The notes beneath the pieces are model-generated. The model had not been told where the DNA came from and ran no database searches. It saw nothing but the letters and a program-made list of their open reading frames with translations. Below, one piece after another: positions 37,341 to 62,451 of a DNA stretch of 64,000 nucleotides. The translations under genes and the position numbers were made by a program. Numbering within the stretch: the stretch's first letter is position 1; each line of letters opens with the position of its first letter. Location of the stretch: the NCBI GenBank assembly GCA_902635455.1, contig CACPNW010000006.1, forward strand, positions 1 to 64,000, given 5' to 3'. The stretch comes from an uncultured Alphaproteobacteria bacterium. Its GTDB lineage: Bacteria > Pseudomonadota > Alphaproteobacteria > HIMB59 > GCA-002718135.

Positions 37341-38605
37341 GATATAGCTATATCTAAATGCTTTAAATACCAGGTCTTAAATTTTTCCAAACCTTTTTCC
37401 ATTTTTGATAAAGGCCCAGGTACATATTTTTTTGACAATACTCCCTTTTGGTTGTCTTCAATAATTCTTTTATCTGCAATAGTAGTAACATCCCACATCC
37501 ATTTAATCTCTTCAAGATCATAATCTTTCCCCTCCTTAGCGTCTTTATGTACAAGCCACATAAGCTCTACTTGTGTATGTAATGTGGAAACAGGAATAAA
37601 AGTAAACAAAGTAGCAAAATCATTGCACATTAACAAACTGTTAAATGGAGATGTGCCTACAGAGGTATAACCTCGATCATAATTTTTAAACTTTCCCATT
37701 AATTTTGAAATTGGTTTTCCAGATTTAGTTTCATTATATTTTCCTTCTTTCAAAGGAGTTCTCTCAGCACTTCTAGAATAATCATTAAATTCTGTTTCTG
37801 TATACTCCCCTGTAACATGACCCATTTTTTTTACTTCCAAATTCCAATTTTCTAACATTTTATTAAATTTTTTAGACGATGGACCAGTATTACTGCCCGC
37901 TCCATATGCTAAAATATAATCCTTATCATGAACCGAACAATATTCTGGATGCGATGGCTGACAATGATAACATTCATGAAAATTATCTAGAGTGAGTTTC
38001 CAGTTTCCTTCAGTAGGATACAATTCTCTATGCGCTATTTTAGCTTCAGCTAATCCATGAAACTCAATAAATTTTCTAGTTGGAGAAATAAATTCATCGA
38101 AGTTGTTTGGGTTTTCAGATAAATTAATAAATATTAAACCTTCAAATATTTTTAAGTTACATTTATGCAGATTCCAATCTTCTTTATTAAAACCTTCATT
38201 CATTAATCTGGCAGATTTAATAGAGCCATCTAAATTATAGCTCCAAGCATGGTAAGGACAAGTTAGTAATTTTTTATTACCTTCATTCTCTAAACAAATA
38301 TGTGAACCTCTATGCCTACAAACATTATAATGAGCATGAATTGTATTTTTTTCATCTCGAATGATTATTATTGATTCGTTCCCTATATTAAATAGAAAAT
38401 AATCACCAAAATTTGGTATTCTTGAAGAATGCCCAACAAAAACCCACTGTTTAGAAAAAATGTTTTTTATATCAAGTTCAAAAATATCATTATCTACATA
38501 AAATGCCTGGTCTAATGTGTAGTTAGGTTTTTGTTTTTTTATTAAATTTTTAAGATCACTATTATTCATTAATTTATATATAATATTGATTGAATATGCA
38601 TTCAA
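37337..38605 (-). CDS. Rieske [2Fe-2S] aromatic-ring-hydroxylating-type oxygenase alpha subunit, GbcA/choline monooxygenase-like
   Basis: Rieske CRHRGSHICLENEGNKKLLTCPYHAWSYNLDG; mononuclear Fe motif LDNFHECYHCQPSHPEYCSVH. Likely start is M13 (38569); the listed start is TTG. Confidence 0.9.
   Translation of the reverse strand: MNAYSINIIYKLMNNSDLKNLIKKQKPNYTLDQAFYVDNDIFELDIKNIFSKQWVFVGHSSRIPNFGDYFLFNIGNESIIIIRDEKNTIHAHYNVCRHRGSHICLENEGNKKLLTCPYHAWSYNLDGSIKSARLMNEGFNKEDWNLHKCNLKIFEGLIFINLSENPNNFDEFISPTRKFIEFHGLAEAKIAHRELYPTEGNWKLTLDNFHECYHCQPSHPEYCSVHDKDYILAYGAGSNTGPSSKKFNKMLENWNLEVKKMGHVTGEYTETEFNDYSRSAERTPLKEGKYNETKSGKPISKLMGKFKNYDRGYTSVGTSPFNSLLMCNDFATLFTFIPVSTLHTQVELMWLVHKDAKEGKDYDLEEIKWMWDVTTIADKRIIEDNQKGVLSKKYVPGPLSKMEKGLEKFKTWYLKHLDIAIS
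38590..38605. promoter_or_regulatory. Palindromic operator TTGAATATGCATTCAA overlapping two divergent promoters
   Basis: Plus strand: TTGAAT-N17-TATAAT (38613-38618)-N6-ATG (38625). Minus strand: TTGAAT (38605-38600)-N17-TATATA (38582-38577)-N7-ATG (38569). Confidence 0.75.
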
Positions 38606-38624
38606 TGAAATTTATAATTAACTG

Positions 38625-39965
38625 ATGGCTAACCTTTACCATAAGGATATATATAACTTTGATGAACCAGTAAAAAGCTACTGGGAGACAACAATTGATA
38701 GTAATTATTATAAATATGAAAAATTAAATAAAAATATTCAAACTAATATACTGGTTATTGGTGGTGGTTATACGGGAATTTCCTGCGCCTTATCTCTTGC
38801 TAAAGATTATAGTGAAGATGTTGTTTTAGTTGAAGCAGGACATGTTGGATGGGGATCATCTGCACGAAATGCTGGATTTTGCTGCATTCCACCTGCCAAG
38901 ATGTCAGTTGAAGGTATGTTTAAAAAATATGGAAAAGAAGAAACAAAAAAATTTTTTAAAAACACAATTGAAGGATCAAACTTTACAAAAAATTTAATTT
39001 CAGAATATAAAATTGATTGTGATGTAACAGGTGATTGTAATTATGAGGTAGCTCCACATCCTAGCTATTATGAATCAATAAAAAAAGAAGCTGATGTATA
39101 TAAAAACGAATTTGGTATAGAAACCAAAATATATTCAAAGGAAGAATTTGAAGAAATAGGACATGGGGGTGAGGAACAATATGGAGCTTTTTCATATAAG
39201 CCAGGTTTTGCAATTAATCCTTTAAAATTCTTATTAGGTCTAGCGAATCAAGCAAAAAAAACTGGTGTAAAAATTTTTCAAAAAAGCAAAGTAAGTAAAA
39301 TCGAAAAAATTGGAGACAAATATAATATCATTATAAATAACAATATAAATATTAGTGCTAATAAAATTGTTATGGCAACTAATGGCTTTTATAAAGATGA
39401 CTTGTTTCCACAACTAAACAATAGGATTTTACCAGTTATATCCAATATTATTATTACAAGACCGCTCAATGAGGAAGAGATTAAGTCACATAATTATGTA
39501 ACTAATAACCCTGTTTTAAATAATAGAAATTTATTGTTTTATTATCGATTACTTAAAGATAATCGTTTTTTGTTTGGTGCAAGAGGAGATCTAATTGGAA
39601 GTGAAAAATCATCTGAAATAAAATCAAAAAAAATGGAAAAACAAATGAAAAAAGTTTTTCCTAATTGGAAAAATGTAGAAATTGACTATCATTGGAGAGG
39701 TCTTGTAGCGGTAACAACAAAATTTACTCCATCGATAGGAAAGTTAGAGGAGGATGAAATTTACTATAGTTTTGGCTATCAAGCTAATGGAGTAAATACT
39801 GCTCCTTGGTCAGGAAATAAGCTTGCAAAACTAATTGTATCAAACAGTAAAAATTTAAATATCTCAAAATTTTTTCAAGGATTACCTAAGACAATTCCAT
39901 TTCCTAAATTAAGACTATTTTATTTAAAGCTATATTTAATCTATTATTCTTTAATGGATAAATAG
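38625..39965 (+). CDS. FAD-dependent oxidoreductase, PuuB/DAO family
   Basis: NILVIGGGYTGISCALSLAKDYSEDVVLVEAGHVGWGSSARNAGFC; YHWRGLVAVTTKFTPSIG. Confidence 0.9.
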   Translation: MANLYHKDIYNFDEPVKSYWETTIDSNYYKYEKLNKNIQTNILVIGGGYTGISCALSLAKDYSEDVVLVEAGHVGWGSSARNAGFCCIPPAKMSVEGMFKKYGKEETKKFFKNTIEGSNFTKNLISEYKIDCDVTGDCNYEVAPHPSYYESIKKEADVYKNEFGIETKIYSKEEFEEIGHGGEEQYGAFSYKPGFAINPLKFLLGLANQAKKTGVKIFQKSKVSKIEKIGDKYNIIINNNINISANKIVMATNGFYKDDLFPQLNNRILPVISNIIITRPLNEEEIKSHNYVTNNPVLNNRNLLFYYRLLKDNRFLFGARGDLIGSEKSSEIKSKKMEKQMKKVFPNWKNVEIDYHWRGLVAVTTKFTPSIGKLEEDEIYYSFGYQANGVNTAPWSGNKLAKLIVSNSKNLNISKFFQGLPKTIPFPKLRLFYLKLYLIYYSLMDK

Positions 39966-39997
39966 ATTTATGAGAATACCTGAAAGATTTGAGGATC

Positions 39998-40141
39998 ATG
40001 AAGCAAAAGTATAAATATTTTTTTATTTTGTATATTTTTATGCTCTTCTTATTAAGCTGCAATAATAATCAAAATATAAAAGGTAAGAAGGGTGACTTTT
40101 CTTTTAGAAAATGTACAAATTGTGAAATATTAGATGATTAA
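39998..40141 (+). CDS. Small (47 aa) predicted lipoprotein, not in the ORF track
   Basis: Own translation MKQKYKYFFILYIFMLFLLSCNNNQNIKGKKGDFSFRKCTNCEILDD*; Lys-rich n-region, hydrophobic h-region, lipobox LLSC. Its stop abuts the next ATG (TAA|ATG). Confidence 0.6.
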   Translation: MKQKYKYFFILYIFMLFLLSCNNNQNIKGKKGDFSFRKCTNCEILDD

Positions 40142-41197
40142 ATGAAAAATCCTAAAGAACTAAACTATTATATGCCTGCAGAATGGCATCCTCATGAATG
40201 TTGTTGGATGCAATGGCCATATGAAAACCCTAAACATAGTGGGTATGGAGATGTTCCTTCTTGGTCTCATTTTGATTTTGATAAAGGAAGATTAGCTTGG
40301 GCTAGTGTTGCAAATGCTATCTCAGAATTTGAAAAAGTCAAAATGATAGTTCATCCTGATGAATTAAGAAAAGCAAAAAATTTATTAAATAATAAAATAC
40401 AAATTATTGAACTAAAAATTGATGATTGTTGGGCCAGAGACAGTGGGGCAATTTTTTTATTAAATGACAAAAATAAACTTGGTGGAATTGATTGGGAATT
40501 TAATGGGTGGGGCAAATTCAAACCTTATGATTCTGATAATAAAATTGCTAAATTTATGATAGAAAATTCTTCTGCAACATATTTTAAAAATAATATGATT
40601 CTTGAAGGAGGCTCTATTCATATAGATGGGAAAGGAACGCTATTAACTACAGAACAATGTTTACTAAATAAAAATAGAAATCCTAATTTGTCAAAGGAAG
40701 AGATTGAAAAAAATTTAAAAGAATTTTTAAATGTAAATAAAATTATCTGGCTAAAAAATGGTACTGATGAAGGAACAGATGGGCATGTTGATAATATTGC
40801 ATGTTTTGTTAAACCAGGCAATGTAATAGCTCTTAGTTGTAAAGATAAAAATGATACTTTTTATGATAGAATTAATGAAAATTTAGAAATTCTAAAAACA
40901 TCAATTGATAGTAGAGGAAAAAGACTAGAAGTTACCGAAATAGAGATGTCTTATAAAAGATTAATCCCTAACGATGATGAGCCAAGTTCATATATTAATT
41001 TTTATATCGCAAACGATGGAATCGTTATGCCTAGTTTTGACGATGAAAAAGCAGATATTAATGCAAAAACTATTGTACAAAATGCCTTTCCTGATAAAAA
41101 AATTATTTGTATAAATGGGATTGATATATCTATGGGTGGAGGTAATGTCCATTGCATAACGCAACAACAACCAAAAAGTATTAATGAACATAATTAG
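40142..41197 (+). CDS. aguA: Agmatine deiminase
   Basis: MPAEWHPHECCWMQWPYE, DDCWARDSGAIFLLND, EGTDGHVDNIACFV, MGGGNVHCITQQQP. Confidence 0.94.
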   Translation: MKNPKELNYYMPAEWHPHECCWMQWPYENPKHSGYGDVPSWSHFDFDKGRLAWASVANAISEFEKVKMIVHPDELRKAKNLLNNKIQIIELKIDDCWARDSGAIFLLNDKNKLGGIDWEFNGWGKFKPYDSDNKIAKFMIENSSATYFKNNMILEGGSIHIDGKGTLLTTEQCLLNKNRNPNLSKEEIEKNLKEFLNVNKIIWLKNGTDEGTDGHVDNIACFVKPGNVIALSCKDKNDTFYDRINENLEILKTSIDSRGKRLEVTEIEMSYKRLIPNDDEPSSYINFYIANDGIVMPSFDDEKADINAKTIVQNAFPDKKIICINGIDISMGGGNVHCITQQQPKSINEHN

Positions 41198-41408
41198 TAA
41201 ATCAATCAAGCACTGTACTGATTCTAATGAAAATTATTTCAAACACATGATTGTTGCTATAAAGATAGCTCTTAATCTTTTAATGGCTTCTATTATGGCT
41301 TTCATACATGCTATTATTCCAGCATTTTTTGAAAAGGGTGCAAGCAAAAAAATAATTACTTTACATAATTATCTTAAAAAAAAGAATAGGATAAATCATG
41401 AAAATTAA
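41184..41408 (+). CDS. DUF6356-like small protein
   Basis: HCTDSNENYFKHMIVAIKIALNLLMASIMAFIHAIIPAFFEKGASKKIITLHNYL; family assignment from memory. Confidence 0.55.
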   Translation: MNIISKSIKHCTDSNENYFKHMIVAIKIALNLLMASIMAFIHAIIPAFFEKGASKKIITLHNYLKKKNRINHEN

Positions 41409-42267
41409 AGTTGCTGCTACTCAAATGTCATGTACTTGGGAAATTGAAGAAAATATTTCAAAGGCATCAAACTTAATAAAAAAAGCAGCAGGTATGGGAG
41501 CCAATATAATCTTACTTCAAGAATTATTTCAAACTCCTTATTTTTGTATTCAGTATGATGAAGAAATTTTCAAATTAGCACAAACTTTTGAAAAAAATGA
41601 AACTCTAGAGCATATGGCAAAACTAGCAAAAGAGTTAAAAGTTGTTCTTCCAATAAGTTTTTTTGAAAAAGATAATAATGCCTATTTTAATTCTATTGCT
41701 GTAATTAATTCAGATGGAAATATTCTTGGTGTTTATAGAAAATCCCATATTCCTGATGGAGCTGGGTATTTAGAAAAATATTATTTTAATCCAGGCAACA
41801 CAGGTTTTAAAGTTTGGGAAACTGCCTATGGAAAAATTGGAATAGGAATTTGCTGGGACCAGTGGTTTCCAGAAGCTGCTCGTATTATGGCTTTAAAAGG
41901 TGCTGATATGTTATTTTATCCAACTGCAATAGGAGATGAATTAATGAGCGAATATGATAGTTCAGGTTCATGGCAAAGAGTGATGCAAGGCCACGCTGCA
42001 GCCAACATAATGCCAGTGATCGCATCAAATAGAATTGGATCTGAATCTGTGAAAGGTCAGACAAACGGTTTTTATGGTAAATCATTTATTGCAGATAGGT
42101 CTGGCAAAATCATAAGTGAGGCTTCAAAAGATAAAGAGGAAATAATATTAGCTGATGTTGATACGGAAGAGGATCATCTTTTTAGAAGAAATTGGGGACT
42201 TTTTAGAGACAGAAGAACAGACTTATATAAAGAAATTTTAACACTTGAAGGCAAGCTTAAAGATTAA
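41398..42267 (+). CDS. aguB: N-carbamoylputrescine amidase (nitrilase superfamily)
   Basis: ILLQELFQTPYFCIQYDEE, YRKSHIPDGAGYLEKYYFNPGNTGFKVWETAYGKIGIGICWDQWFPEAARIMAL; downstream of aguA. Confidence 0.95.
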   Translation: MKIKVAATQMSCTWEIEENISKASNLIKKAAGMGANIILLQELFQTPYFCIQYDEEIFKLAQTFEKNETLEHMAKLAKELKVVLPISFFEKDNNAYFNSIAVINSDGNILGVYRKSHIPDGAGYLEKYYFNPGNTGFKVWETAYGKIGIGICWDQWFPEAARIMALKGADMLFYPTAIGDELMSEYDSSGSWQRVMQGHAAANIMPVIASNRIGSESVKGQTNGFYGKSFIADRSGKIISEASKDKEEIILADVDTEEDHLFRRNWGLFRDRRTDLYKEILTLEGKLKD

Positions 42268-43642: not shown

Positions 43643-43692
43643 ATAAATTTTATATGAAAAATTTAATTGAATGTCTATGTATTTAAATTTAA

Positions 43693-45177: not shown

Positions 45178-45260
45178 ATAAATTTTATTTTTATTGAAAT
45201 TTTCTGAAATTATTGTTCATATACTACTTAATTAATTAATTAATTTTTATTGGGGGTAAA

Positions 45261-46373: not shown

Positions 46374-46393
46374 TAAATTTTTTTTTATAAATT

Positions 46394-46430
46394 TGACCCG
46401 TAATTTTATTACGGGTCATTTTTTTTTATA
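46394..46430 (+). terminator. Rho-independent terminator
   Basis: Perfect 10-bp stem TGACCCGTAA-TTTTA-TTACGGGTCA followed by a T-tract, between the SBP gene and the convergent ATPase gene. Confidence 0.92.
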
Positions 46431-47500
46431 ACACGTATATCTTTTAAATTAATATTTAAGTAACAATCAGAATTTATTGATAACCCTTGTAAACTTTCTG
46501 CGGTTGATAACATAAGTGCTTTATCTACTCCTTCTATACTTACATATACATATGTTAAATTCCCATAAAATGAAGTATTTGTAATTTTACCCTTAACTTG
46601 AATATCGGATTTTTTATTATCATTTGAGCTAATGTTTATTGACTTAGGTCTTATACCGGTAACAATAGTATCGTTTTGATTAATAATTGTATGTGCTTGT
46701 ATTGTATATTCACCTATTCCATTAATTAAAACTTTTACATTCTTGCCATCAATATTAGAAATTTCAGAGTTTAATAAATTTATGTCTCCTATGAAATCTC
46801 CTACAAATAAATTTACAGGAAAATCATATAATTCTCTAGGTGGTGAAACTTGTAAAATTTTTCCTTGATTCATTACTGCCACCCTATCAGACATGGTCAT
46901 TGCCTCTTCCTGATCGTGAGTAACAAAAACAAAAGTTATTCCTACACTTCTTTGTAAGTTTCTTAACTCTATTTGCATCTCTTCTCTTAATTTCTTATCT
47001 AATGCTCCTAATGGCTCATCCAGTAATAAAACTTTAGGCCTTTTGACAAGTGCTCTAGCTAAAGCAACTCTTTGTCGCTGACCACCTGAAAGTTGGTTAG
47101 AAAATCTATTTTCATAACCTTCTAATTTTACCATTTTAAGAGCTTCACTTACTCTTTGATTCACTTCTTCAGCAGAAATTTTTTCTTTCCTTAAACCAAA
47201 CTCTATATTTCTTTTTACATTTATATGAGGAAATATAGCATAGTTTTGAAATACCATATTAGTTGGCCTTAAATTTGCTGGAATATCAGTTACATCAGAG
47301 CCATCAATTGAAACTGAACCTTCTGATGGATATTCAAACCCTGCTAAAATTCTTAACAAAGTAGTTTTTCCACAACCTGAAGGCCCTAAAAGAGAGAAAA
47401 ATTCACCCTTTCCAATGTTTATATTAACATTATCTACTGCAACCACATCGTCAAAATTTTTTGACAGATTGTTTATTTTTATAAAATTCTTATCATCCAT
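46409..47500 (-). CDS. Polyamine/betaine-type ABC transporter ATPase (PotA-like)
   Basis: LLGPSGCGKTTLLRILAGF, LSGGQRQRVALARAL, LLLDEPLGALDKKLREEMQ, VTHDQEEAMTMSDR. Confidence 0.96.
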   Translation of the reverse strand: MDDKNFIKINNLSKNFDDVVAVDNVNINIGKGEFFSLLGPSGCGKTTLLRILAGFEYPSEGSVSIDGSDVTDIPANLRPTNMVFQNYAIFPHINVKRNIEFGLRKEKISAEEVNQRVSEALKMVKLEGYENRFSNQLSGGQRQRVALARALVKRPKVLLLDEPLGALDKKLREEMQIELRNLQRSVGITFVFVTHDQEEAMTMSDRVAVMNQGKILQVSPPRELYDFPVNLFVGDFIGDINLLNSEISNIDGKNVKVLINGIGEYTIQAHTIINQNDTIVTGIRPKSINISSNDNKKSDIQVKGKITNTSFYGNLTYVYVSIEGVDKALMLSTAESLQGLSINSDCYLNINLKDIRVIKKNDP

Positions 47501-48312
47501 TATATTCCACCTATTTTACTTTTCTTACCAGAAGGGTTGCCTAAATTCCTTAACCAATAAGATATTATAACTAACAATGAAGTAACCACAATAATTACTG
47601 CCCCTAATGCCAAAACATGAGGTAATTTTTTTGGAAAACGCATTTGTCCCCACATATACATAGGTAGTGTTTGATCTGATGAGGATAAGAAAAAAGCAAG
47701 AATAAATTCATCAAATGAAATTACAAATGATAATAATAAAGATGCTATAACTGCTGGTAAAACAAGAGGAAAAGTTACACGCCAAAAAGTTCCCCAAGCA
47801 TTTTCTCCTAAATCCATTGCTGCTTCTTCTAAGTTTTTATCAAAGCCCTCCATTCTTGAAATTAAAATTAATAAACAAAAAGGAGTGCAAAATAAAATAT
47901 GCGAAATAGTTACTGGAACCAAACCTAATTGAAAACCCATTCCAGTCCAAATTACAATTAAAGCTACTGCAATAATAATTTCAGGAATAACAAAAGGAAG
48001 TAAAATTGCTCCATATGATAATTGATGAAATCTAACTTTATATCTTGTAAATGCTTTAGCAGCTAACAATGCAATAAAAGTACTAAAAACAGATGCTACC
48101 AATCCAACTTTTATACTATTCATCAAAGCTTTATGTAGTCTGCTAGAATGAATCATTTGATCATACCATTTAAACGTAAAACCCTTAAGCGGAAAAACCA
48201 TATGAATAGCATCATTAAAAGAAAAAATAGGTAACAGCATCACTGGTATATATAAAAAAGCAAAATAAATTATTGAATATAAAAGTAATGTATTATTTTT
48301 TTTATACATCAA
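47500..48312 (-). CDS. ABC transporter permease (PotC-like)
   Basis: EEAAMDLGENAWGTFWRVTFPLVLPAVIASLLLSFVISFDEFILAFFLS. Confidence 0.94.
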   Translation of the reverse strand: MMYKKNNTLLLYSIIYFAFLYIPVMLLPIFSFNDAIHMVFPLKGFTFKWYDQMIHSSRLHKALMNSIKVGLVASVFSTFIALLAAKAFTRYKVRFHQLSYGAILLPFVIPEIIIAVALIVIWTGMGFQLGLVPVTISHILFCTPFCLLILISRMEGFDKNLEEAAMDLGENAWGTFWRVTFPLVLPAVIASLLLSFVISFDEFILAFFLSSSDQTLPMYMWGQMRFPKKLPHVLALGAVIIVVTSLLVIISYWLRNLGNPSGKKSKIGGI

Positions 48313-49193: not shown

Positions 49194-49212
49194 AAATGAC
49201 CTTATATATTAT

Positions 49213-50391
49213 TTATTCAATTAAGGATTGCAAACCCCTTTTATAAAGAGAATTTGCAATAATTATTCTATGAATTTCACTTGTTCCTTCCCAAATACGA
49301 TCAACACGAAGTTCTCTATAATATCTCTCAGCAACATTGTCTCTCATATATCCTCTGCCTCCAAAAATTTGAACAGATCTATCAGCTACTCTATTAGCCA
49401 TTTCAGACGCCATTAGTTTAATCATAGAACATTTTCCATGTAAAATTTTGACATCTTGTTTTGCATCATGTGCTTTGCATATTTCGTACAACATTAATCT
49501 AGTAGAAGCCAGTTCATTTACACTATCGGCAAGCATGAACTGTATTGCTTGATAATTTGCAATTTTATCACCAAATGAAACTCTTTCTTTTGCAAACTCT
49601 GTAACTTCATCAATAAGCCTTTCAGCTGCTCCACAACATCTTGCTGCTATACCTAATCTTTCATGTCTGAACCAAGAGTGAGTAAAATCCATACCCATGC
49701 CTTCATTTCCTATAATATTTTTTTCAGCTACAGACACATTATTAAATCGATAAATACTATGATGATGAGCATATGTATGGCTAAACTTAGGAGTGTCAAT
49801 TAATTCAATACCTTCAACATTTTTATCAATTATGAAAAGTGCATTTTTATCTTTATTTGGCCCTGATTTAATTTTAGCTTGCAAAAAGAAAAAGTCAGCT
49901 AAGTTTGCACTTGTTACATACCATTTTTCTCCATTAATTATATATTGGTCTCCTTTTTTTTCTGCCGTTGTTTCAATTGATCCTTCTACATCAGATCCTG
50001 CACCCTTTTCTGTGATTGCATAACATTCTTTTTTTATACCTTTTAAGAGGGGTTGAAGATAATGTTCTTTTTGGTAATCATTAAAATTCTCTTCCATCCA
50101 ATCCTGAGCTTCAGAAAAACACCAGCATAAAGCATTAGTAACCCTACCTAATTGTTCCCATATTATCATTTGTTCAAACATAGTTAATCCTAAGCCACCG
50201 CTTTCTTTTGTTATGCCCATACCTGGCAATCCGAAAGAAATTGCAATTTCACGATGTTTTTTTTCAATATCTTTTGGAAGCTCACCTTCATTTTTTTCTG
50301 CATGAACTTCCCAGGGAATAAGTTCATCATTTACAAATTTTTTTATTTTTATCTTCCATTCAAGAGCTTTAGGTGTCATTCCACTATACAT
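49213..50391 (-). CDS. Acyl-CoA dehydrogenase
   Basis: CYAITEKGAGSDVEGSIETTA, ADRSVQIFGGRGYMRDNVAERYYRELRVDRIWEGTSEIHRIIIA. Confidence 0.94.
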   Translation of the reverse strand: MYSGMTPKALEWKIKIKKFVNDELIPWEVHAEKNEGELPKDIEKKHREIAISFGLPGMGITKESGGLGLTMFEQMIIWEQLGRVTNALCWCFSEAQDWMEENFNDYQKEHYLQPLLKGIKKECYAITEKGAGSDVEGSIETTAEKKGDQYIINGEKWYVTSANLADFFFLQAKIKSGPNKDKNALFIIDKNVEGIELIDTPKFSHTYAHHHSIYRFNNVSVAEKNIIGNEGMGMDFTHSWFRHERLGIAARCCGAAERLIDEVTEFAKERVSFGDKIANYQAIQFMLADSVNELASTRLMLYEICKAHDAKQDVKILHGKCSMIKLMASEMANRVADRSVQIFGGRGYMRDNVAERYYRELRVDRIWEGTSEIHRIIIANSLYKRGLQSLIE

Positions 50392-50394
50392 AAT

Positions 50395-51018
50395 TTATAA
50401 TATTCCTTTAAATTGTTTTGGAAAATTTGATTTAACAAATTCAAAACAAATTTTCTTTGATTGCGTTCTATTAAAAGTATCAGGATCTTCTAACTGATCT
50501 AACCACAAACCCATTATTAAAGCTTGAAATCCTCTAGCTACATTTTTTTTTGATAATTTATTTTTTTCTTTTTTTATTAAATCTGTAAATATATTTTCAG
50601 TTACACTTTGATAGTACAAGTCTCTTTCTTTACATATTTGATGATAAGCAGGTTTATACTTTATTTCACTAAAGAAAGTAAACCAAACTGCAATTTTTTC
50701 TCTAGTGCATATTTTTTTACTAAAATCATTTTCTATAATTCCTATTATTTTTTTTCTTGGATCATTACCTGATTTAGAAATACTTTTTTGAAATGAGTGA
50801 AGATATTCATTTGAAATAAACTTTAGGGTTTCAATTAATAATATTTCCTTACTTTTGAAATGAAAATTAACAATACCTTGAGATAGTCCTGCCCCCTGTG
50901 ACACATCCTGCATTGTTAATTCATTTATCCCTTTTTTAGATAAATTTTTAATAGTAGATGAAATTAATTTTAAATTACTATTTTTTTTGTTTTCTAATCT
51001 AAGATTTCGCTGCTTCAT
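50395..51018 (-). CDS. TetR-family regulator, BetI-like
   Basis: ISSTIKNLSKKGINELTMQDVSQGAGLSQGIVNFHFKSKEILLIETL HTH; BetI-like C-terminal region (KIAVWFTFFSEIKYKPAYHQICKERD). Confidence 0.88.
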   Translation of the reverse strand: MKQRNLRLENKKNSNLKLISSTIKNLSKKGINELTMQDVSQGAGLSQGIVNFHFKSKEILLIETLKFISNEYLHSFQKSISKSGNDPRKKIIGIIENDFSKKICTREKIAVWFTFFSEIKYKPAYHQICKERDLYYQSVTENIFTDLIKKEKNKLSKKNVARGFQALIMGLWLDQLEDPDTFNRTQSKKICFEFVKSNFPKQFKGIL

Positions 51019-51076
51019 AAATTTACTAAAACTACATTAGTTTTTCATAAAAAGCTTGATTTTACAAGAAATTTGG

Positions 51077-51092
51077 TTGAATGGTCATTCAA
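51077..51092. promoter_or_regulatory. Palindromic operator TTGAATGGTCATTCAA between the TetR gene and the PYROXD2-like operon
   Basis: Perfect 7-bp half-sites with 2-bp spacer; starts 34 bp upstream of the likely ATG at 51111; TATAAA at 51098-51103. Confidence 0.78.
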
Positions 51093-52739
51093 AGAGATAT
51101 AAAAAAAACTATGAACAAAGCTAAATATGATGTTGCTATAATTGGAGGCGGTCACAATGGGTTAACTACAGCATGTTATTTAGCCAAAGCCGGCCTTAAA
51201 GTGGTTGTTGTAGAAAGACATGATTATGTTGGAGGCGCTGCTGTAAGTAGAGAGCTTCATCCAGGCTGGACATATTCTAACTGTTCTTATGTTTGTAGCT
51301 TATTGCGACCTGAAATTTTTAGAGATTTAGAATTGTCAAAGCATGGTTTACAAATTATTCCTTATGAAGGTAGTGCTAGTATGCTTGATGATGGAAGATT
51401 TTACGCACATTATCAAGACCATGATTTAACATACCGTTCTATTGCTCAATTTTCAAAAAAAGATGCTGAAGCTTATGATAGATTTGGAAAAGATGTCATG
51501 AGGCAATGTAAAATCATTAAACCTCTTTTAAAATTGACTCCTCCTGATCCAACATCTTTTAAACCAAAAGACATAATGGGCTTATTTGAATTTGCTAAAT
51601 ATTTTGCTGCTAAAGATGAATTAGGCGGATTAGGAGAAAAAGAAATTTATGACACCATTAGATTCTGGACAATGAGTGTTAGAGACTATCTCGAAGAATA
51701 TTTTGAGTCAGATATAGTAAAGGTTCATTTAGCAGGTTCGGCTATTATTGGAACGGCACTTGGTCCTTACTCACCTGGTTCAGCATACGTATTATTACAT
51801 CATTATATGGGAGAAGTTGATGGCACTGTAGGAGCTTGGGGTTATTCAAGAGGAGGAATGGGTTCAATCACAAAAGCTATGGCATCATCTTTTAAATCAA
51901 AAAATGGAGAGATTAAAGCTGGCTCACCAGTTACTAAAATTCTCATTAAGAATAATAAAAGTTATGGTCTTGTTCTCGAAAATGGTGATGAAATTTATGC
52001 TGATAAAATAGTTTCAAATCTTGATGTAAAAAGAACTTTTTTAAAAGTTGTTGAAGAAAAAGAATTACCTAGTGATTTTTATAGAGCTGTAAAAAATTTT
52101 AAAATTCGAGGATCTTCAGGAAAATTAAATATTGCGCTTGATGATCTTCCTGTTTGGAAAAGTATTCCAATTGGCGATCCTGCAGGAACCGGTGATTTGC
52201 ACATAACACAGAACATTGAAGAGATGGAGGGCGCTTATGATGATTGGAAAGATGGTAAATGGTCTCAATTTCCTTATGTTGATATGTGTATTCCTAGTAT
52301 TAATGATCCAACAATGGCACCTCAAGGAAAACATTATATGTCAGTTTTCATTCAATATGTGCCATATAATTTAGCAGATGGAGGGTGGACTGAAGAAAAG
52401 CGTAAAGAGTTTGGGAAACATGTAATGGAAAGAATTGGAAATTACTCAACAAACTTCAAAGATATCATCAATCACGCAGAAATTAGAACTCCTAAAGAAT
52501 TAGAAGCAGAAGTTGGTTTAACTGAAGGTAATATATTTCAAGGTGAATTAACAATGGATCAACTAATGTTTAATCGTCCTGTGCCTGGCTATGCTCAATA
52601 CAAAACACCTATAAAAAACCTATACATGTGTGGTTCTAGTACGCATCCTGGTGGAGGTGTTATGGGAGCACCTGGGGCAAATGCAGCAAGAGAAATATTA
52701 AAAGATTTAAATAAGAAAATGTCAACGCATTACATATGA
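51081..52739 (+). CDS. NAD(P)/FAD-dependent oxidoreductase, phytoene-desaturase/PYROXD2-like
   Basis: KYDVAIIGGGHNGLTTACYLAKAGLKVVVVERHDYVGGAAVSRE; LYMCGSSTHPGGGVMGAPGANAAREIL. Likely start MNKAKYD at 51111. Confidence 0.9.
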   Translation: MVIQRDIKKTMNKAKYDVAIIGGGHNGLTTACYLAKAGLKVVVVERHDYVGGAAVSRELHPGWTYSNCSYVCSLLRPEIFRDLELSKHGLQIIPYEGSASMLDDGRFYAHYQDHDLTYRSIAQFSKKDAEAYDRFGKDVMRQCKIIKPLLKLTPPDPTSFKPKDIMGLFEFAKYFAAKDELGGLGEKEIYDTIRFWTMSVRDYLEEYFESDIVKVHLAGSAIIGTALGPYSPGSAYVLLHHYMGEVDGTVGAWGYSRGGMGSITKAMASSFKSKNGEIKAGSPVTKILIKNNKSYGLVLENGDEIYADKIVSNLDVKRTFLKVVEEKELPSDFYRAVKNFKIRGSSGKLNIALDDLPVWKSIPIGDPAGTGDLHITQNIEEMEGAYDDWKDGKWSQFPYVDMCIPSINDPTMAPQGKHYMSVFIQYVPYNLADGGWTEEKRKEFGKHVMERIGNYSTNFKDIINHAEIRTPKELEAEVGLTEGNIFQGELTMDQLMFNRPVPGYAQYKTPIKNLYMCGSSTHPGGGVMGAPGANAAREILKDLNKKMSTHYI

Positions 52740-54202
52740 AAAACTTTGATGTCATAATAATTGGGGCAGGTCACAATGGTTTAGCCGCTGCCTCTTATCT
52801 TTCAAAAAAAGGTAAGAAAGTTTTAGTGGTTGAAAAAAATCAAAATGTTGGAGGTTTGGCAGAATATTCAGATTCACTGAATTGTGTCTCTCCGATAATT
52901 AAAAAAGAATTAAATATTAATGTGACTAATGTTGATAAGACAACTCACATTGTATCGCTTGAAGACAACCAAAACCATACTGTTCTAGAAGATAATAATG
53001 GCAAATTATCTTTTTTAAAAACTAATGCTGAAGAAGAAGATCAGCAAAAATTCTTGTCAATTATTAACAACTACAAATTATTTTCAAAAACTCTTGGTTC
53101 GTTTATGTTTCAACAACCACCAAGAGTTAAATCAGGTAAAAAATCTGACTTATTTCAATTAATTTCAATGGGATGGAAAATTAGGAAATTAGGTAAAAAA
53201 AATATGCGCGAACTGCTTAGAATAATAGGTTTAAATATAGCGGATGATTTAGAGGATAATTTAAGCAATAATAACTTAATGGGTTTGCTATCCCATGAAG
53301 CGGTTTTGGGAACAAACTTAGGACCAAGATCTCCAGGCTCTATATTAACTTTACTATATAAACAAGCCACCAATAACAATATTTTTAATTTAAAAAAAAT
53401 AGAGGTTGCAGAATATATTAAGCAATTAGAAGATTGCTGTAATAAAAATATGGTCGAAATTATTAAATCATCTGAAGTAAAAAAAATATTAACTCAAAAT
53501 AACTCAGTTACTGGTGTTCAATTAACAAATGGAGAGGTTTTTGAATCAAAATATTTAATGTCTAATGCTGACCCTAAGACAACTTACTTAAATTTATTAG
53601 GTGCAGAAATTTTAGATACTGATTTTATTAGAAGAGTGAAAAATTTTAGAAATAAAGGGAATGTCGCTAAACTTGAGTTAGTATTAGAAAATGAAATTAA
53701 TATTAATAATATTGATAAAAATATGTATGGAAAATTTATTTATGCACCAAATATTAAATACATCGAACATGCATTTAATGCCAATAAATATAACAAATAC
53801 TCTGATAATCCATGTCTCGAGTTTTACGTTAATCAAAATACCATATCAGCTAATGTTTATTATGTTCCATATTTGCTAAACTCTCATCATGAAGAAAATA
53901 AAATTATTAAAAGATGTGTGTCAATTTTAAGTAAATTTATTCCAGAAATGAAAATTGCAAAACAAGAACTCACTACTCCTAATAAAATGGAAGAAAAATT
54001 TAATATAGGGGGTGGGCATTGGCATCACGGTGATTTAGAAATAGATCAATTATTAATGATGAGACCTTTTTATGGATCATCTCAATATTCCACACCTATA
54101 AATGGCTTGTATTTATGTAGTGCAGGTACTCATCCCGGAGGGGGGTTAACTGGTATCAATGGTCTTAATGCTGCTAAAAAAGTTATAGAGGAATTAAAAT
54201 AA
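52736..54202 (+). CDS. Second PYROXD2-like FAD oxidoreductase (tandem paralogue)
   Basis: FDVIIIGAGHNGLAAASYLSKKGKKVLVVEKNQNVGGLAEYSD; LYLCSAGTHPGGGLTGINGLNAAKKVIEEL; overlaps the upstream gene by 4 nt. Confidence 0.88.
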   Translation: MKNFDVIIIGAGHNGLAAASYLSKKGKKVLVVEKNQNVGGLAEYSDSLNCVSPIIKKELNINVTNVDKTTHIVSLEDNQNHTVLEDNNGKLSFLKTNAEEEDQQKFLSIINNYKLFSKTLGSFMFQQPPRVKSGKKSDLFQLISMGWKIRKLGKKNMRELLRIIGLNIADDLEDNLSNNNLMGLLSHEAVLGTNLGPRSPGSILTLLYKQATNNNIFNLKKIEVAEYIKQLEDCCNKNMVEIIKSSEVKKILTQNNSVTGVQLTNGEVFESKYLMSNADPKTTYLNLLGAEILDTDFIRRVKNFRNKGNVAKLELVLENEININNIDKNMYGKFIYAPNIKYIEHAFNANKYNKYSDNPCLEFYVNQNTISANVYYVPYLLNSHHEENKIIKRCVSILSKFIPEMKIAKQELTTPNKMEEKFNIGGGHWHHGDLEIDQLLMMRPFYGSSQYSTPINGLYLCSAGTHPGGGLTGINGLNAAKKVIEELK

Positions 54203-55404
54203 TGAATACAACAAAAATATCATACAAAAAACCTCTTTTAGAAACACCTTTTCACGAAAGAACATCAGAGCATTGTTATTCAAATGATTGGTATCGATGG
54301 GCTGGATATAAAGTAGCAAAAGAATATTCATCAACAGAACTTGAATATACTTCGATGAGAAATACAGCTGGAGTAATAGATATTACTCCTATGCATAAAT
54401 ATGATATTAAAGGTGAGGATGCTAAAAATTTTATTAATAAATTAATTACAAAAGACATTTCTAATATTCAATCTAATCAAGTTGCTTACGGCATATGGTG
54501 CAATGAAGATGGAATGGTAATTGATGATGGAACAATATTTTGCTTTAATGAAAATCATTTTAGAATTTTTTGTGCTGAACGTAATCTAAATTGGTTTTCT
54601 GATACAGGAACTGGATTTAATGTAACTATTGAAGATATAAGTTCTTCAATTGCAGCTTTAGCCTTCCAAGGCCCTTTATCTTGTAAGATTTTAAATTTAT
54701 TACAAGTAAAAAACATAGAAAACCTAAAACCATTTCATTTTGATAGTTATAAAATTGAACATCATAATGTTATAATTTCCAGAACAGGTTTTTCTGGAGA
54801 CTTAGGTTATGAAATATGGTGTGATCCTTCTCAAGCCATTGATGTATGGGATAATTTATTTAAATTTAACAGAGATTATAAAGTACTCGCAGCTGGAATG
54901 AATGCACTTGATATGGTGAGAATTGAAGCAGGATTTATCCAACCAAATGCAGATTTTATGTCTGCAGAACAAGCTTTAAGACCAAATAGAATGAGAAACC
55001 CGTATGAATTAGGTTTAGGTTGGTTAGTAAATCTAGATAAAGAGTATTTTACTGGGAAACAGGCTTTAATTAGACACAAAGAAAAAGGGCCTGAAAAAAA
55101 ACTTGTAGGATTGGATGTTGAGGGAGATAAGCCTGCTGTTGGATCTGTCCTCTATGATAATAGTAAGAAAAATATAGCCAAAGAAATTGGTATAGTGACA
55201 GCAGCAATGTGGTCCCCAGTTCTTAAATCTAATATTGCAATTGGATTTGTTAACAAAGAATATTATAAGTTAGGATCTAATGTTTATGCCGAAATTTACC
55301 ATCCAGAAGAATTGGATTATAGAAAAATTTGGGCTGAATGCAAAGTGGTAAAAAAGCAATTTTTTAACAATCCAAGAAGGAATGCTATACCTGCATTTAT
55401 ATAG
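54202..55404 (+). CDS. GcvT/DmdA-family aminomethyltransferase (predicted folate-dependent demethylase)
   Basis: GVIDITPMHKYDIKGEDAKNFINKLITKDI, ISRTGFSGDLGYEIWCDP, GLGWLVNLDKEYFTGKQAL. Confidence 0.88.
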   Translation: MNTTKISYKKPLLETPFHERTSEHCYSNDWYRWAGYKVAKEYSSTELEYTSMRNTAGVIDITPMHKYDIKGEDAKNFINKLITKDISNIQSNQVAYGIWCNEDGMVIDDGTIFCFNENHFRIFCAERNLNWFSDTGTGFNVTIEDISSSIAALAFQGPLSCKILNLLQVKNIENLKPFHFDSYKIEHHNVIISRTGFSGDLGYEIWCDPSQAIDVWDNLFKFNRDYKVLAAGMNALDMVRIEAGFIQPNADFMSAEQALRPNRMRNPYELGLGWLVNLDKEYFTGKQALIRHKEKGPEKKLVGLDVEGDKPAVGSVLYDNSKKNIAKEIGIVTAAMWSPVLKSNIAIGFVNKEYYKLGSNVYAEIYHPEELDYRKIWAECKVVKKQFFNNPRRNAIPAFI

Positions 55405-55416
55405 GATATATATTAT

Positions 55417-56568
55417 ATGGAATTTAATCTTTCAGAAGAACAGAATCTTTTAATAAATACTACTAAATCATTCGTAAAAGCAGAATTATTGCAACATGAA
55501 GAACTATTAGAAAAAACAAATAATTTACCAAAAGAATTGTATGATGAAATTAAGAAAAAAAGTATTGAAGCAGGATTATATGCTTGCAATATGCCAACTG
55601 AACATGGTGGTGGTGGCTTAAATGCTTTTGATTTAACCTTGGTTGAAAAACATCTTGGATTTGCATCACTTGCTTTAGCAGAAATTGCTTGGAGACCACA
55701 AAATATCTTAATGGCCTGCGAAGGTGAACTAGTAGATGAATACTTAAAACCGACTATTACAGGAGAGAGAAAAGATTGTATTGCTATGACTGAACCTGGC
55801 GCTGGTTCAGATTTAAGAGGTATGAAAACGAAAGCAGTTAAAGATGGCAATGATTGGATTATCAATGGAACAAAACATTTTATATCTAATGCTCACATCT
55901 CTGACTTTGTTGTTCTTTTTGCTTCAACAGGTGAAGATGATAAAGGTAGAAATTTACTTTCTTGTTTTTTAGTTGATTTAAAACAAAAAGGAGTTGAAGT
56001 TGCTAAAGGATATGACTGTGTCTCTCACAGAGGATATGTAAATAATATTATACATTTTAATGATTGTAGAATTCCTGGAAAAAATATTCTTGGAGAAAAA
56101 GATAAGGGTTTTGAATTAATGAATGTTTGGTTGGAAGCTACTAGATTAACTGTAGCAGCTACTTCCGTTTCTAGAGCGGAAAGAGCTTTTGATATAGCAT
56201 TAGATTGGTCTGCAAATAGAAAGCAATTTGGTAAAGTCATTGGTAAATTTCAAGGTGTTTCATTTAAATTAGCTGATATGGCAACAGAAATTAAGCTAGC
56301 AAATTTAATGTTAATGGAATCAGCCTGGAAAATTGATCAAAACACATTAACATCTCAGGATGCTGCTATGACAAAATTATTCTGCACAGAAATGGTTGGT
56401 AGAGTTTCAGATGAAGCAATTCAAATTTGTGGTGGAATGGGTTTAATGTCAGATATCCCTCTTGAAAGAATATGGCGAGATGCAAGAATAGAAAGAATTT
56501 GGGAAGGAACAAGTGAAATTCAGCGTCATATTATTTCACGTTCTCTTCTAAGACCACTTGGAGCGTAA
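55417..56568 (+). CDS. Acyl-CoA dehydrogenase (CaiA/Bbd-like candidate)
   Basis: CIAMTEPGAGSDLRGMKTKAV, SANRKQFGKVIGKFQGVSFKLADMATEI, ERIWRDARIERIWEGTSEIQRHII. Confidence 0.94.
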   Translation: MEFNLSEEQNLLINTTKSFVKAELLQHEELLEKTNNLPKELYDEIKKKSIEAGLYACNMPTEHGGGGLNAFDLTLVEKHLGFASLALAEIAWRPQNILMACEGELVDEYLKPTITGERKDCIAMTEPGAGSDLRGMKTKAVKDGNDWIINGTKHFISNAHISDFVVLFASTGEDDKGRNLLSCFLVDLKQKGVEVAKGYDCVSHRGYVNNIIHFNDCRIPGKNILGEKDKGFELMNVWLEATRLTVAATSVSRAERAFDIALDWSANRKQFGKVIGKFQGVSFKLADMATEIKLANLMLMESAWKIDQNTLTSQDAAMTKLFCTEMVGRVSDEAIQICGGMGLMSDIPLERIWRDARIERIWEGTSEIQRHIISRSLLRPLGA

Positions 56569-56571
56569 TCT

Positions 56572-58608
56572 TTGAATTTAAAAAAACTTTTTAGGCCAAA
56601 AAGCCTCGCTTTAATTGGAGGATATTGGGCTGATTTTGTTTACGATGGTAACAAAACTATTGGTTACAAAGGTAAAGTTTGGCATATTAATCCTTCAAGA
56701 CAAAGTTCCAAGACAAAAAAATATTATAAAAATATTAGAGACCTCCCAGAAGTTCCAGATTGTGTTTATCTTGCTGTTTCAAGCGACCAAACAGTTAAAT
56801 TAATTAAAGATATTTCTGATTTAGGTGTTGGAGGAACAGTATGCTTAGCCTCAAGATTTTCTGAACTTAATTCTAAAGAAGGAAAAGACAAAACTACTAA
56901 GCTAATTAGAAATGCAGGTAAAATGCCTTTTTTAGGACCAAATTGCTATGGATTTATAAACTACCTAGATAAAATTTCTGTATGGTCAGATCAAGTTGCG
57001 GGCATGCCAGTTAAAAAAGGTGTCGCTATTATTTGTCAAAGTGGAACAATTGGCAACACTATAAGCTTCAACAATAGATCATTGCCAATTGGTTACATTA
57101 TTTCACTGGGTAATCAGGCACAAATAACTATAGAAGATGCTATTAACTATGTTCTTGAAGATAAAAGAGTGACTGCGATTGGAATTTATGCTGAAAGTTT
57201 TACAAATTCAGAAAAATTAGTCACAGCCTTTAGAAAATCAAGATTAAAAAAAATACCTATAGCTCTAGTTAAAGTAGGAAGATCTAAAATTGCCTCTAAA
57301 ACAATTCTTACACATACCGGTTCACTAAGTGGAAAAGAAAATATTTATGATTCTTTGTTTAAAAGAATGGGCGTCACTCGATGCAATACATTAGGAGAAT
57401 TATGTGAAATATTGAAATTATTTCATACTCATGGAGTTTTAAAAAATAATAAAATATCAATCATGGGACCTTCGGGTGGTGATATGGCTATGATAGGAGA
57501 TGTTGCGGAAAGATTAAATTTAAACTTTGAAAAAATACCTACAAAAATAAAAGCTAAATTGAAAAAAGTTAATCACCCAAGTGTAATAATTTCTAACCCA
57601 TTTGATTTACAAACATATAATTGGAATGATCCTGATGACTTAGAAAAAACATTTAAACTTATGTTTAAAACAAATTTTGGAATAAATGCACTAATGTTAG
57701 ATTTTCCAAATATTGAAGATTGTGATACTAAGGAATGGGATGCAATTGTTGATAAATTTATTAAATCTTCTAAAGTCAAAAAAAACGGTGCTATTATTTC
57801 CTCACTATCAGATACTTTACCAAAATATTTGAGAGATAAATGTCTTAAGTCTGGAGTAGTGCCTCTTCAAGGCATGTATGAAGGATTACTAGCAATTAGT
57901 AATTCAATTAAGGTTGCAAAAGCATGGAAAAATATTTCTGAAATAAAAATACCAAAAACTATATCTAAATTTAAAAAGAAAATAAAAACTTATTCTGAAT
58001 ACGAATCAAAAATAATTTTAAAAAAATATGGAGTACCTATACCAAAGTCTTTAATCACAAATAAACAAAATCTATTACGTGATTACAAAAAAATAGGATT
58101 CCCTTTAGTAGCAAAAATTAATTCTAATAATATCTTTCATAAAACAGAAATAAATGGAGTTTTTACAAATATTAATAATGAAAAAGAATTAAGACAAAAA
58201 ACAAGAAAATTAAAAGGAAGTATATTGTTAGAAAAAATGATTACAAATCCTGTTTTTGAAATAATTATAGGAATAAAAAACGACAATGAATTCGGACCCA
58301 CTATAATTATAGGTGCTGGTGGAATATACACAGAATTATTTAAAGATACGACTACTCTTCTTTTACCTTTAAATAAAAAAATTATTTTAGAAGAAATAAA
58401 AAAACTAAAATTTGGAAAAATATTATTAGGTTTTAGAGGAAAACAAGGTGCTGATTTAAGTGCCCTTGTTAGTGCAATAATAAAAGTCTCTAAATTTGCT
58501 GAAAAAAATTCTGATAAAATTTCAGAAGTTGATATAAATCCACTAATAGTTTGCAAAAAAGGCAAAGGTGTATTTGCCGTTGATGCATTAATACATTACT
58601 TTGATTAA
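56572..58608 (+). CDS. NDP-forming acyl-CoA synthetase (fused alpha/beta; TTG start)
   Basis: CoA-binding N-terminus KKLFRPKSLALIGG, FLGPNCYGFINY, LTHTGSLSGKENIYDSLFKRMG, ATP-grasp C-terminal domain PLVAKINSNNIFHKTEINGVF. Confidence 0.88.
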   Translation: MNLKKLFRPKSLALIGGYWADFVYDGNKTIGYKGKVWHINPSRQSSKTKKYYKNIRDLPEVPDCVYLAVSSDQTVKLIKDISDLGVGGTVCLASRFSELNSKEGKDKTTKLIRNAGKMPFLGPNCYGFINYLDKISVWSDQVAGMPVKKGVAIICQSGTIGNTISFNNRSLPIGYIISLGNQAQITIEDAINYVLEDKRVTAIGIYAESFTNSEKLVTAFRKSRLKKIPIALVKVGRSKIASKTILTHTGSLSGKENIYDSLFKRMGVTRCNTLGELCEILKLFHTHGVLKNNKISIMGPSGGDMAMIGDVAERLNLNFEKIPTKIKAKLKKVNHPSVIISNPFDLQTYNWNDPDDLEKTFKLMFKTNFGINALMLDFPNIEDCDTKEWDAIVDKFIKSSKVKKNGAIISSLSDTLPKYLRDKCLKSGVVPLQGMYEGLLAISNSIKVAKAWKNISEIKIPKTISKFKKKIKTYSEYESKIILKKYGVPIPKSLITNKQNLLRDYKKIGFPLVAKINSNNIFHKTEINGVFTNINNEKELRQKTRKLKGSILLEKMITNPVFEIIIGIKNDNEFGPTIIIGAGGIYTELFKDTTTLLLPLNKKIILEEIKKLKFGKILLGFRGKQGADLSALVSAIIKVSKFAEKNSDKISEVDINPLIVCKKGKGVFAVDALIHYFD

Positions 58609-58616
58609 TTATAATT

Positions 58617-59393
58617 ATGGAAAATCCAATTAAAACAAAAATTGAAGGATCAATCTTAGAAGTTACAATTGATCGACCAAAAGCAAATGCAATAGATGCT
58701 AAAACAAGCATTATCTTAGGCGATGTATTTGCTGACTTTAGAGATAATCCGAAACTAAAAGTAGCTATAGTAACGGGTGCAGGCGAAAAATTTTTTTCTG
58801 CAGGATGGGATTTGAAAGCTGTAAATGAAGGAGAAGAAGCAGATACAGATTATGGTGTAGGTGGATTTGGAGGATTACAAGAATTACCAAATATGAACAA
58901 GCCTATTATTGCTGCTGTAAATGGAATAGCATGTGGTGGTGGTTTTGAAATTATGATTTCTACAGATATTATAATCGCTGCTGAGCATTCTACATTTGCA
59001 CTACCTGAAATTAATGTTGGAGTTGTGGCAGATGCTGCTACAATTAAATTACGACGACGTATACCATATCACGTAGCTGTCGAGTTCTTAATGACTGGAA
59101 GGTGGATGGATGTAAAAGAGGCAAAGCACTGGGGTTTAGTTAATGAAATAGTTAATAAAAATAACTTATTAAAAAGAGCTTGGGAGATAGCTACTAAAAT
59201 TTCAAATGGCCCTAATTTAATTTATTCTTCCATAAAAGAAGTTCTAAGAGAAACTGAAAATGAAAAAGAGATACCTTCATTTAAAGTTTTAAGATCATTG
59301 GAAAGTGTTAAAAAAGTATATGGAAGCGAAGATTTGAAAGAAGGAGCCTCATCATTTGTTAAAAAAACTGATCCTAATTGGAAAGATAAATAA
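58617..59393 (+). CDS. Enoyl-CoA hydratase/isomerase family protein, CaiD-like
   Basis: VTGAGEKFFSAGWDLKAVNEGE, NGIACGGGFEIMISTDIIIAAEHSTFALPEINVGVVADA, LRRRIPYHVAVEFLMTGRWMDVKEAKHWGLVNEIV. Confidence 0.92.
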   Translation: MENPIKTKIEGSILEVTIDRPKANAIDAKTSIILGDVFADFRDNPKLKVAIVTGAGEKFFSAGWDLKAVNEGEEADTDYGVGGFGGLQELPNMNKPIIAAVNGIACGGGFEIMISTDIIIAAEHSTFALPEINVGVVADAATIKLRRRIPYHVAVEFLMTGRWMDVKEAKHWGLVNEIVNKNNLLKRAWEIATKISNGPNLIYSSIKEVLRETENEKEIPSFKVLRSLESVKKVYGSEDLKEGASSFVKKTDPNWKDK

Positions 59394-59410
59394 ATAAAAA
59401 AATAATTTCA

Positions 59411-59426
59411 TTGAATGAGCATTCAG
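59411..59426. promoter_or_regulatory. Operator TTGAATGAGCATTCAG upstream of the class III aminotransferase
   Basis: Same palindrome as at 38590 and 51077. TTGAAT-N17-TACTAT (59434-59439)-N6-ATG (59446); an additional GAATG half-site follows. Confidence 0.75.
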
Positions 59427-59445
59427 CGAATGTTACTATAAGGCA

Positions 59446-60822
59446 ATGAAAAACGATTATATTAGTGAAATTCATAAAAAAGACAAATTGGTTTTACACC
59501 CATATGAAGATATGGAAAGTAGGGGAACATATGATCGAAAACTCATTGTAAATTCTGATAATATTTACCTATATGATGAAAATGGTAAGGAATATATTGA
59601 TGGACCAGGTGGTATGTGGTGTAACAATATAGGTCATGGAAATAAAGAAATAGGTGAAGCTGTTAAAATACAACTTGAAAAAATGGAATATTGTAGTCCT
59701 TTTTCAGAATCCAGTGAAATTTCTGCTGAACTAGCCTCTGTTTTATCAGAGCTATCTCCTGGAGATCTAAATACAGTCTTCTTCACAACAGATGGTTCTA
59801 CAGCCAACGATACCGCTCTTCGATTCATTATGTTTTATAACAACATATTAGGCCGACCTAATAAAAAACATTTTATTACTAGAGATAAAGCTTATCATGG
59901 AAGCACATATCTAACAGGTTCAATAACAGGAAAAGATAGAGAAAAAAATAATTTTGATTTTGAAAAAAATTTTATTCACCATTTAAGCTCACCGCTTCCC
60001 TACAGAAGAAAAGATAATCAAACAATTGAAGAATTTTGTGATGAACTAGTAAAGGAATTTGAAGATAAAATAATAGAACTAGGATCAGAAAATGTTGCCG
60101 CCTTTATTGCTGAACCAGTTATGGCTTCTGGCGGATGTATTGTACCACCAGATGGATATTTAAAAAGAATTTGGCAAATATGTAAAAAGTACGATGTTTT
60201 ATATATATCTGATGAAGTTGTTACAGGATTTGGAAGAATGGGTCATTTTTTTTCATCTAAAGAAGTTTTTGACGTAGTTCCAGATATAATAACTTGCGCA
60301 AAGGGTATTACTTCAGGATATATGCCGTTAGGAGCTGTTTTGTTTTCTGACAAACTTCTTAGTGACATAAAAAAAGAATCTGCTCTTTTTTTTCATGGAT
60401 ACACTTATTCAGGGCATCCAGCATGTTGTGCAGCTGCATTAAAAAATATTGAAATTATTAAACGCGATAAAATCCTTCAACATGTCAAAGAAATAGAGCC
60501 ATATTTTCATGAAAAATTAAAAAATTTGTATGAATTACCAATTGTTGGTGATGTAAGAGGCAAAGGATTAATGGCGGGAATAGAATGCGTAATAAATAAA
60601 GACAGTAAAGAAGCACTAATACTAGATAAGGCTATAGGATCTAGAATTGATGAAGAATCAATAAAATTAGGATTAATTATTCGTCCATTATATCATATTT
60701 GTGTTTTATCCCCTGCATTAATAATTACAAAATCACAAATCGATACACTTGTTGAAAAATTATATACTGCAATTCAAAATTCTCTTAAACAACTTGAGGT
60801 AGAAGGTCTTTGGAAAGACTAA
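59446..60822 (+). CDS. PLP-dependent class III aminotransferase
   Basis: FTTDGSTANDTALRFIMFYNN, ISDEVVTGFGRMGHFFSSKEVFDVVPDIITCAKGITSGYMPLGAVLFS. Confidence 0.95.
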   Translation: MKNDYISEIHKKDKLVLHPYEDMESRGTYDRKLIVNSDNIYLYDENGKEYIDGPGGMWCNNIGHGNKEIGEAVKIQLEKMEYCSPFSESSEISAELASVLSELSPGDLNTVFFTTDGSTANDTALRFIMFYNNILGRPNKKHFITRDKAYHGSTYLTGSITGKDREKNNFDFEKNFIHHLSSPLPYRRKDNQTIEEFCDELVKEFEDKIIELGSENVAAFIAEPVMASGGCIVPPDGYLKRIWQICKKYDVLYISDEVVTGFGRMGHFFSSKEVFDVVPDIITCAKGITSGYMPLGAVLFSDKLLSDIKKESALFFHGYTYSGHPACCAAALKNIEIIKRDKILQHVKEIEPYFHEKLKNLYELPIVGDVRGKGLMAGIECVINKDSKEALILDKAIGSRIDEESIKLGLIIRPLYHICVLSPALIITKSQIDTLVEKLYTAIQNSLKQLEVEGLWKD

Positions 60823-62446: not shown

Positions 62447-62451
62447 ATATT

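Follow-up and report, generated by a model that had tools for sequence, protein, structure and literature searches.

A 64-kb stretch of DNA from an uncultured alphaproteobacterium of the HIMB59 lineage (contig CACPNW010000006.1, positions 1 to 64,000; hereafter the window) carries an island of genes for a Rieske oxygenase, FAD-dependent oxidases, acyl-CoA dehydrogenases, an aminotransferase and a polyamine-type transporter, along with a gene for a BetI-like regulator of the TetR family. AEGEAN-169 has been described as equivalent to SAR11 subclade V/HIMB59 and as carrying polyamine transporters (PMC10308909). Three promoter regions of the island are marked by copies of one 16-bp palindrome, here called operators A, B and C (Table 1). 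All three copies are present where the original prediction, made from the letters of the window alone, had placed them, and the distances it had given from the start of each copy to the next ATG (38625, 51111 and 59446) are correct, at 35, 34 and 35 bp. The palindromes are very probably operators of one regulon, under the control of the BetI-like TetR protein. The same operator is found at several promoters, is conserved, and tracks the regulator gene.

The exact pattern TTGAATNNNCATTCAR has four matches in the source genome (1.14 Mb, 68% complete): operators A, B and C, and a copy on another contig (C26:3405), which was rejected as chance because it falls within an open reading frame. The three island copies are the only intergenic ones, and the random scatter which, according to the original prediction, would speak against a regulon was not seen. 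The 48 genomes of the same genus that lack the TetR gene contain 4 matches in ~60 Mb, or ~0.07 per Mb. At this rate 0.004 copies are expected in the window, and the Poisson probability of three or more is 1.3e-8. In a scan of the window with a matrix whose training set includes the three sites themselves, the sites score 24.4, 22.9 and 19.0 bits, and the next best place 7.8. The consensus, YTGAAYGNNCRTTCAR, is broader than the one first proposed.

The TetR gene was found in 13 of 61 genomes of the genus, the source genome included. The motif is present in all 13, versus 4 of the 48 others (Fisher test, p = 3.6e-10), and among the genomes searched the PYROXD2a and Rieske genes occur only in TetR-bearing ones. 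The island is syntenic across the TetR-bearing relatives, and footprinting of the three intergenic regions placed all three sites at orthologous promoters, as expected of the shared regulon originally suggested. Operator A is kept in 12/12 aligned genomes, position 8 alone being variable, operator B in 13/13, and operator C in 10, in addition to which G050 has the TTGAAC variant TTGAACGCATATTCAG. Variation inside the operators is confined to the central bases. When GTDB contigs were scanned using the TetR alignment, 21 loci were retrieved, and operator B adjoins the TetR gene in 21/21; these are single-cell genomes and metagenome-assembled genomes (MAGs) of uncultured Alphaproteobacteria/Pelagibacterales (e.g. 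MarineAlpha5_Bin5, single-amplified genomes of the AG-447 series, SAR11-SAG-MED31), some of which already belong to the set of 61. Genome-wide count, co-occurrence with TetR and footprints together rule out a chance origin of the palindromes. Off-island matches in other genomes examined lie within reading frames, except in L046, from another family of the order, in which no long frame covers the site. The TTGAATTGCCATTCAG family seen at the order level was taken as unrelated; its L047 copy lies inside a frame resembling tRNA pseudouridine synthase. The island (35976–63021) is present or absent as a block in the genus, in 13/61 genomes as judged by TetR, which suggests flexible-genome or transferred content.

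The strongest evidence, and an independent one, lies outside the lineage. Relatives of the TetR protein reside in 20 of 385 genomes of the class, beside PYROXD2a, ACAD1, Rieske, PuuB-like, GcvT-like and pot genes. In 412 kb around these distant TetR genes YTGAAYN4RTTCAR occurs 14 times, versus a mean of 0.20 in shuffled sequences; spacers of 0–3 or 5–10 bp between the half-sites yield 0–2 copies each. Rhizobium sp. SL42, Shinella zoogloeoides ATCC 19623, Ensifer adhaerens CTYH.Ch1 and Shinella sp. PSBB067 feature exactly three copies each (12 in the four GC-rich rhizobial replicons, versus 0.03 in shuffles). These precede the PYROXD2a/TetR pair, the aminotransferase gene and the Rieske gene, which is the layout of the window, and in all four rhizobia a divergent potB flanks the aminotransferase operator on its other side. 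For a motif first picked out by eye, such depth of conservation is unusual. Identity to the window proteins is 34–37% for TetR and 59–61% for PYROXD2a, and just 26–29% for the Rieske protein, so the Rieske genes of window and rhizobia may be analogues and not strict orthologues. In genomes of another family (f38), tandem operators 19 bp apart are found upstream of PYROXD2a. A further tandem pair with the same 19-bp distance (L191:1501–1535, L195:1482–1516) precedes a separate gene of the old yellow enzyme (OYE)/BaiCD-type NADH:flavin oxidoreductases in f38; gene and operators adjoin a gene for an Lrp/AsnC-type regulator, and an OYE-type gene is also found within the Shinella cluster. The f38 gene is likely an extra member of the regulon outside the TetR cluster.

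The regulator matches the TetR_N model PF00440 with 34.9 bits (cut-off 24). Helix-turn-helix helices span residues 36–43 and 47–54 in a predicted model of modest quality (mean pLDDT 64), and operator B, a conserved palindrome, lies 59–74 bp upstream of its own start. The best NCBIfam model, the BetI equivalog TIGR03384, gives 105.3 bits, under its cut-off of 201.3. The protein shares with the choline-responsive BetI repressor of the E. coli bet genes a BetI-type C-terminal domain, a divergent gene arrangement and the related half-site TTGRAC. It differs in that the half-sites abut in the E. coli betI-betT gap (ATTGGACGTTCAAT) and are separated by a 4-bp spacer in the window, that betA/betB (choline dehydrogenase, betaine aldehyde dehydrogenase) are missing among the annotated island genes, and that three operators are spread over ~21 kb. 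The original description as BetI-like is thus apt, and identity with BetI is unsupported, given the sub-threshold score and the other operator spacing. On these comparisons the half-site is common to BetI-type sequences and the 4-bp spacer is the mark of this subfamily. FadR of Bacillus subtilis, a TetR-family protein controlling fatty-acid degradation, also recognizes a half-site of the TGAATG type, in a wider spacing (TGAATGAMTANTCATTCA), and provides a lead only; in the PDB a fatty acid metabolism regulator chain (3whb) is a weak relative, aligning with residues 10–101 only (E = 4e-4).

The recognition-helix region GLSxGIVNFxF is common to the window TetR (GLSQGIVNFHF) and most motif-bearing homologues, as the rhizobial (GLSRGIVNFHF) and Rieske-linked (GLSVGIVNFYF) ones. 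Homologues without the motif mostly differ in this region (GLSQGVAVFYF, GLSRGMIHLHF). Leaving aside L179, which has one TetR of each kind, an exact site was found in 14/22 loci with a GxxNF TetR versus 1/10 others, which supports the connection between TetR and motif. L162 (genome G116) encodes the closest homologue at the class level by percent identity (40%). At L162:3147–3162, beside the same kinds of genes, it carries GATTGAACGTTCAATC, with abutting half-sites as in the E. coli betI-betT gap; the spacing of the operator may have changed within this subfamily.

As originally claimed, the left half-site coincides with a TTGAAT -35 box at each site, and a -10-like hexamer follows 15–17 bp downstream. 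At operator A, both divergent promoters seem to draw their -35 box from the one palindrome. All four -10-like elements lie 6–7 nt upstream of the start codon, a distance at which transcripts would have little or no leader. Shine-Dalgarno-like strings are not commoner before starts than at control positions in this lineage (19/178 versus 17/178), and -10-like hexamers form a modest peak only, 5–9 nt before the ATG. Leaderless initiation is plausible at these genes.

Table 1. Operators, genes and promoter elements of the island, with positions in the window
Feature	Position	Strand	Remarks
Operator A, TTGAATATGCATTCAA	38590-38605	none	in 55-bp gap between divergent Rieske (ATG 38569, minus) and PuuB-like (ATG 38625, plus) genes
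Operator B, TTGAATGGTCATTCAA	51077-51092	none	between divergent TetR and PYROXD2a genes
Operator C, TTGAATGAGCATTCAG	59411-59426	none	in 52-bp gap 5' of aminotransferase gene
BetI-like TetR-family regulator, proposed repressor	50395-51018	-	TetR_N and TetR_C_6 domains
-10-like TATATA, Rieske gene	38577-38582	-	17 bp past minus-strand TTGAAT (38605-38600); 7 nt to ATG; TATATA/TATAAT in relatives
-10-like TATAAT, PuuB-like gene	38613-38618	+	17 bp past TTGAAT (38590-38595); 6 nt to ATG; similar hexamer in relatives
-10-like TATAAA, PYROXD2a	51098-51103	+	15 bp past TTGAAT; 7 nt to ATG; TATAAG/TATAAA in most relatives
-10-like TACTAT, aminotransferase gene	59434-59439	+	17 bp past TTGAAT, preceded by TGn; 6 nt to ATG; similar hexamer in relatives
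Rieske oxygenase alpha subunit, GbcA-like	37337-38569	-	
PuuB-like FAD (DAO) oxidase	38625-39965	+	followed by aguA (40142-41197) and aguB (41398-42267)
potB-potC-potA, polyamine-type ABC (ATP-binding cassette) transporter	46409-49193	-	potA and potC annotated; potB from gene order
ACAD1 acyl-CoA dehydrogenase	49213-50391	-	after TetR; order kept in relatives
PYROXD2a and PYROXD2b flavoproteins	51111-54202	+	
GcvT-like aminomethyltransferase/demethylase	54202-55404	+	
ACAD2 acyl-CoA dehydrogenase	55417-56568	+	
Acetate--CoA-ligase-like protein, NDP (nucleoside diphosphate)-forming type	56572-58608	+	
CaiD-like enoyl-CoA hydratase	58617-59393	+	
Class III aminotransferase	59446-60822	+	PRK07036 above cut-off
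Major facilitator superfamily (MFS) transporter, GNAT and HD-domain genes	60832-63021	+	after aminotransferase

Several observations weigh against one regulon under this TetR. The relatives, incomplete single-cell genomes and MAGs, share ancestry, so that the Fisher test of motif against TetR gene (p = 3.6e-10) overstates their independence. The motif was not found in the homologous clusters of Fuscovulum, Parasedimentitalea and Leisingera. Six loci (L161, L163, L164, L165, L176, L178) feature a similar helix and no exact site nearby, so the helix sequence is not a full code for the motif, and L162 has the abutting version of the site. The -10 spacer of PYROXD2a is short (15 bp), a clear promoter for the TetR gene was not found, and support for leaderless starts is weak overall.

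Three other explanations were considered. The TetR protein could be an activator, or a dual regulator, and not simply a repressor, which we regard as unlikely. The operators are located at the -35 region, and some TetR-family proteins do activate transcription; overlap with the -35 box and spacer is, however, the usual position of a repressor, and BetI, the nearest named relative, is a repressor, as its family name states. Still less probable is that a regulator encoded elsewhere binds the palindromes, the neighbouring TetR being a bystander. Gene neighbourhood alone is no proof of binding, and the Lrp/AsnC-type gene of L191 adjoins the extra tandem site in f38; but the motif tracks the TetR gene within the genus, is found beside TetR genes of 24–40% identity in other families, also between TetR and its divergent neighbour, and no other regulator recurs beside the sites in the loci examined. 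That the palindromes are ordinary -35 boxes, symmetrical by chance in AT-rich DNA, is hardly credible: TTGAAT makes a good -35 box with a -10 element at 15–17 bp at every site, but both half-sites are kept in all aligned relatives when a -35 box requires one only, the motif precedes homologous genes at the short distant-homologue loci, which measure 53–72% GC, and the matrix scores of the window sites far exceed the next best place.

With the palindromes taken as TetR operators, a BetI-like dimer would bind YTGAAYGNNCRTTCAR and cover the -35 box and spacer, at operator A on both strands. Each TTGAAY half-site would double as -35 box, so that bound repressor would block RNA polymerase. An amine ligand, imported or made by the pathway, would release the repressor and jointly induce five transcription units: the Rieske oxygenase gene; the PuuB-like gene, perhaps with aguA/aguB; PYROXD2a-PYROXD2b-GcvT-ACAD2-CoA ligase-CaiD; aminotransferase-MFS-GNAT-HD; and TetR-ACAD1-PotBCA. 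Transcripts would start at or beside the ATG, without a ribosome-binding site. Binding, repression over activation, ligand, start sites and extents of the operons are all inferred. Gene order would bring aguA/aguB and other downstream genes into the regulon, and autoregulation of TetR is plausible from the position of operator B.

Taken together, the island enzymes and the Pot transporter, with agmatine deiminase and N-carbamoylputrescine amidase genes close by, suggest a route of demethylation, deamination and CoA-linked oxidation for an N-methylated or polyamine-like substrate. The GbcA-like Rieske protein, the GcvT-like enzyme and the flavoproteins recall glycine betaine demethylation (GbcAB, Dgc, Sox). 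The Rieske protein reaches 335 bits, however, versus the GbcA cut-off of 670, and glycine betaine is an improbable substrate given the additional genes of the island for an aminotransferase, acyl-CoA enzymes and polyamine transport. Among the papers searched, none contains the motif strings tried and none gives a matching description of a related regulon or pathway, and this regulon for the breakdown of an amine-type nutrient is apparently undescribed so far. More tentatively, and with slightly less than even confidence, the regulator may represent an ancient BetI-like subfamily, extending from the streamlined AEGEAN-169 of the sea to the rhizobia of the soil, in which a 16-bp operator with 4-bp spacing controls a new N-methylated-amine/polyamine pathway (Rieske, PYROXD2 pair, GcvT-like, aminotransferase), the AEGEAN-169 operator also serving as -35 box of a leaderless bidirectional pair.

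Few regulons are known for AEGEAN-169 and its relatives, which abound in the ocean; regulator, operators and gene set are here defined for one. Homologous systems reside in cultivable Rhizobium, Shinella and Ensifer, and the inducer of the repressor should disclose the substrate of enzymes which recur together across Alphaproteobacteria. In the window, a half-site, TTGAATGTCTATKTAWTTAAA, is kept in relatives in the GS2/amidase divergent gap (43655–43690), as a half-site only; it may be a fourth, weak operator or simply a -35 box.

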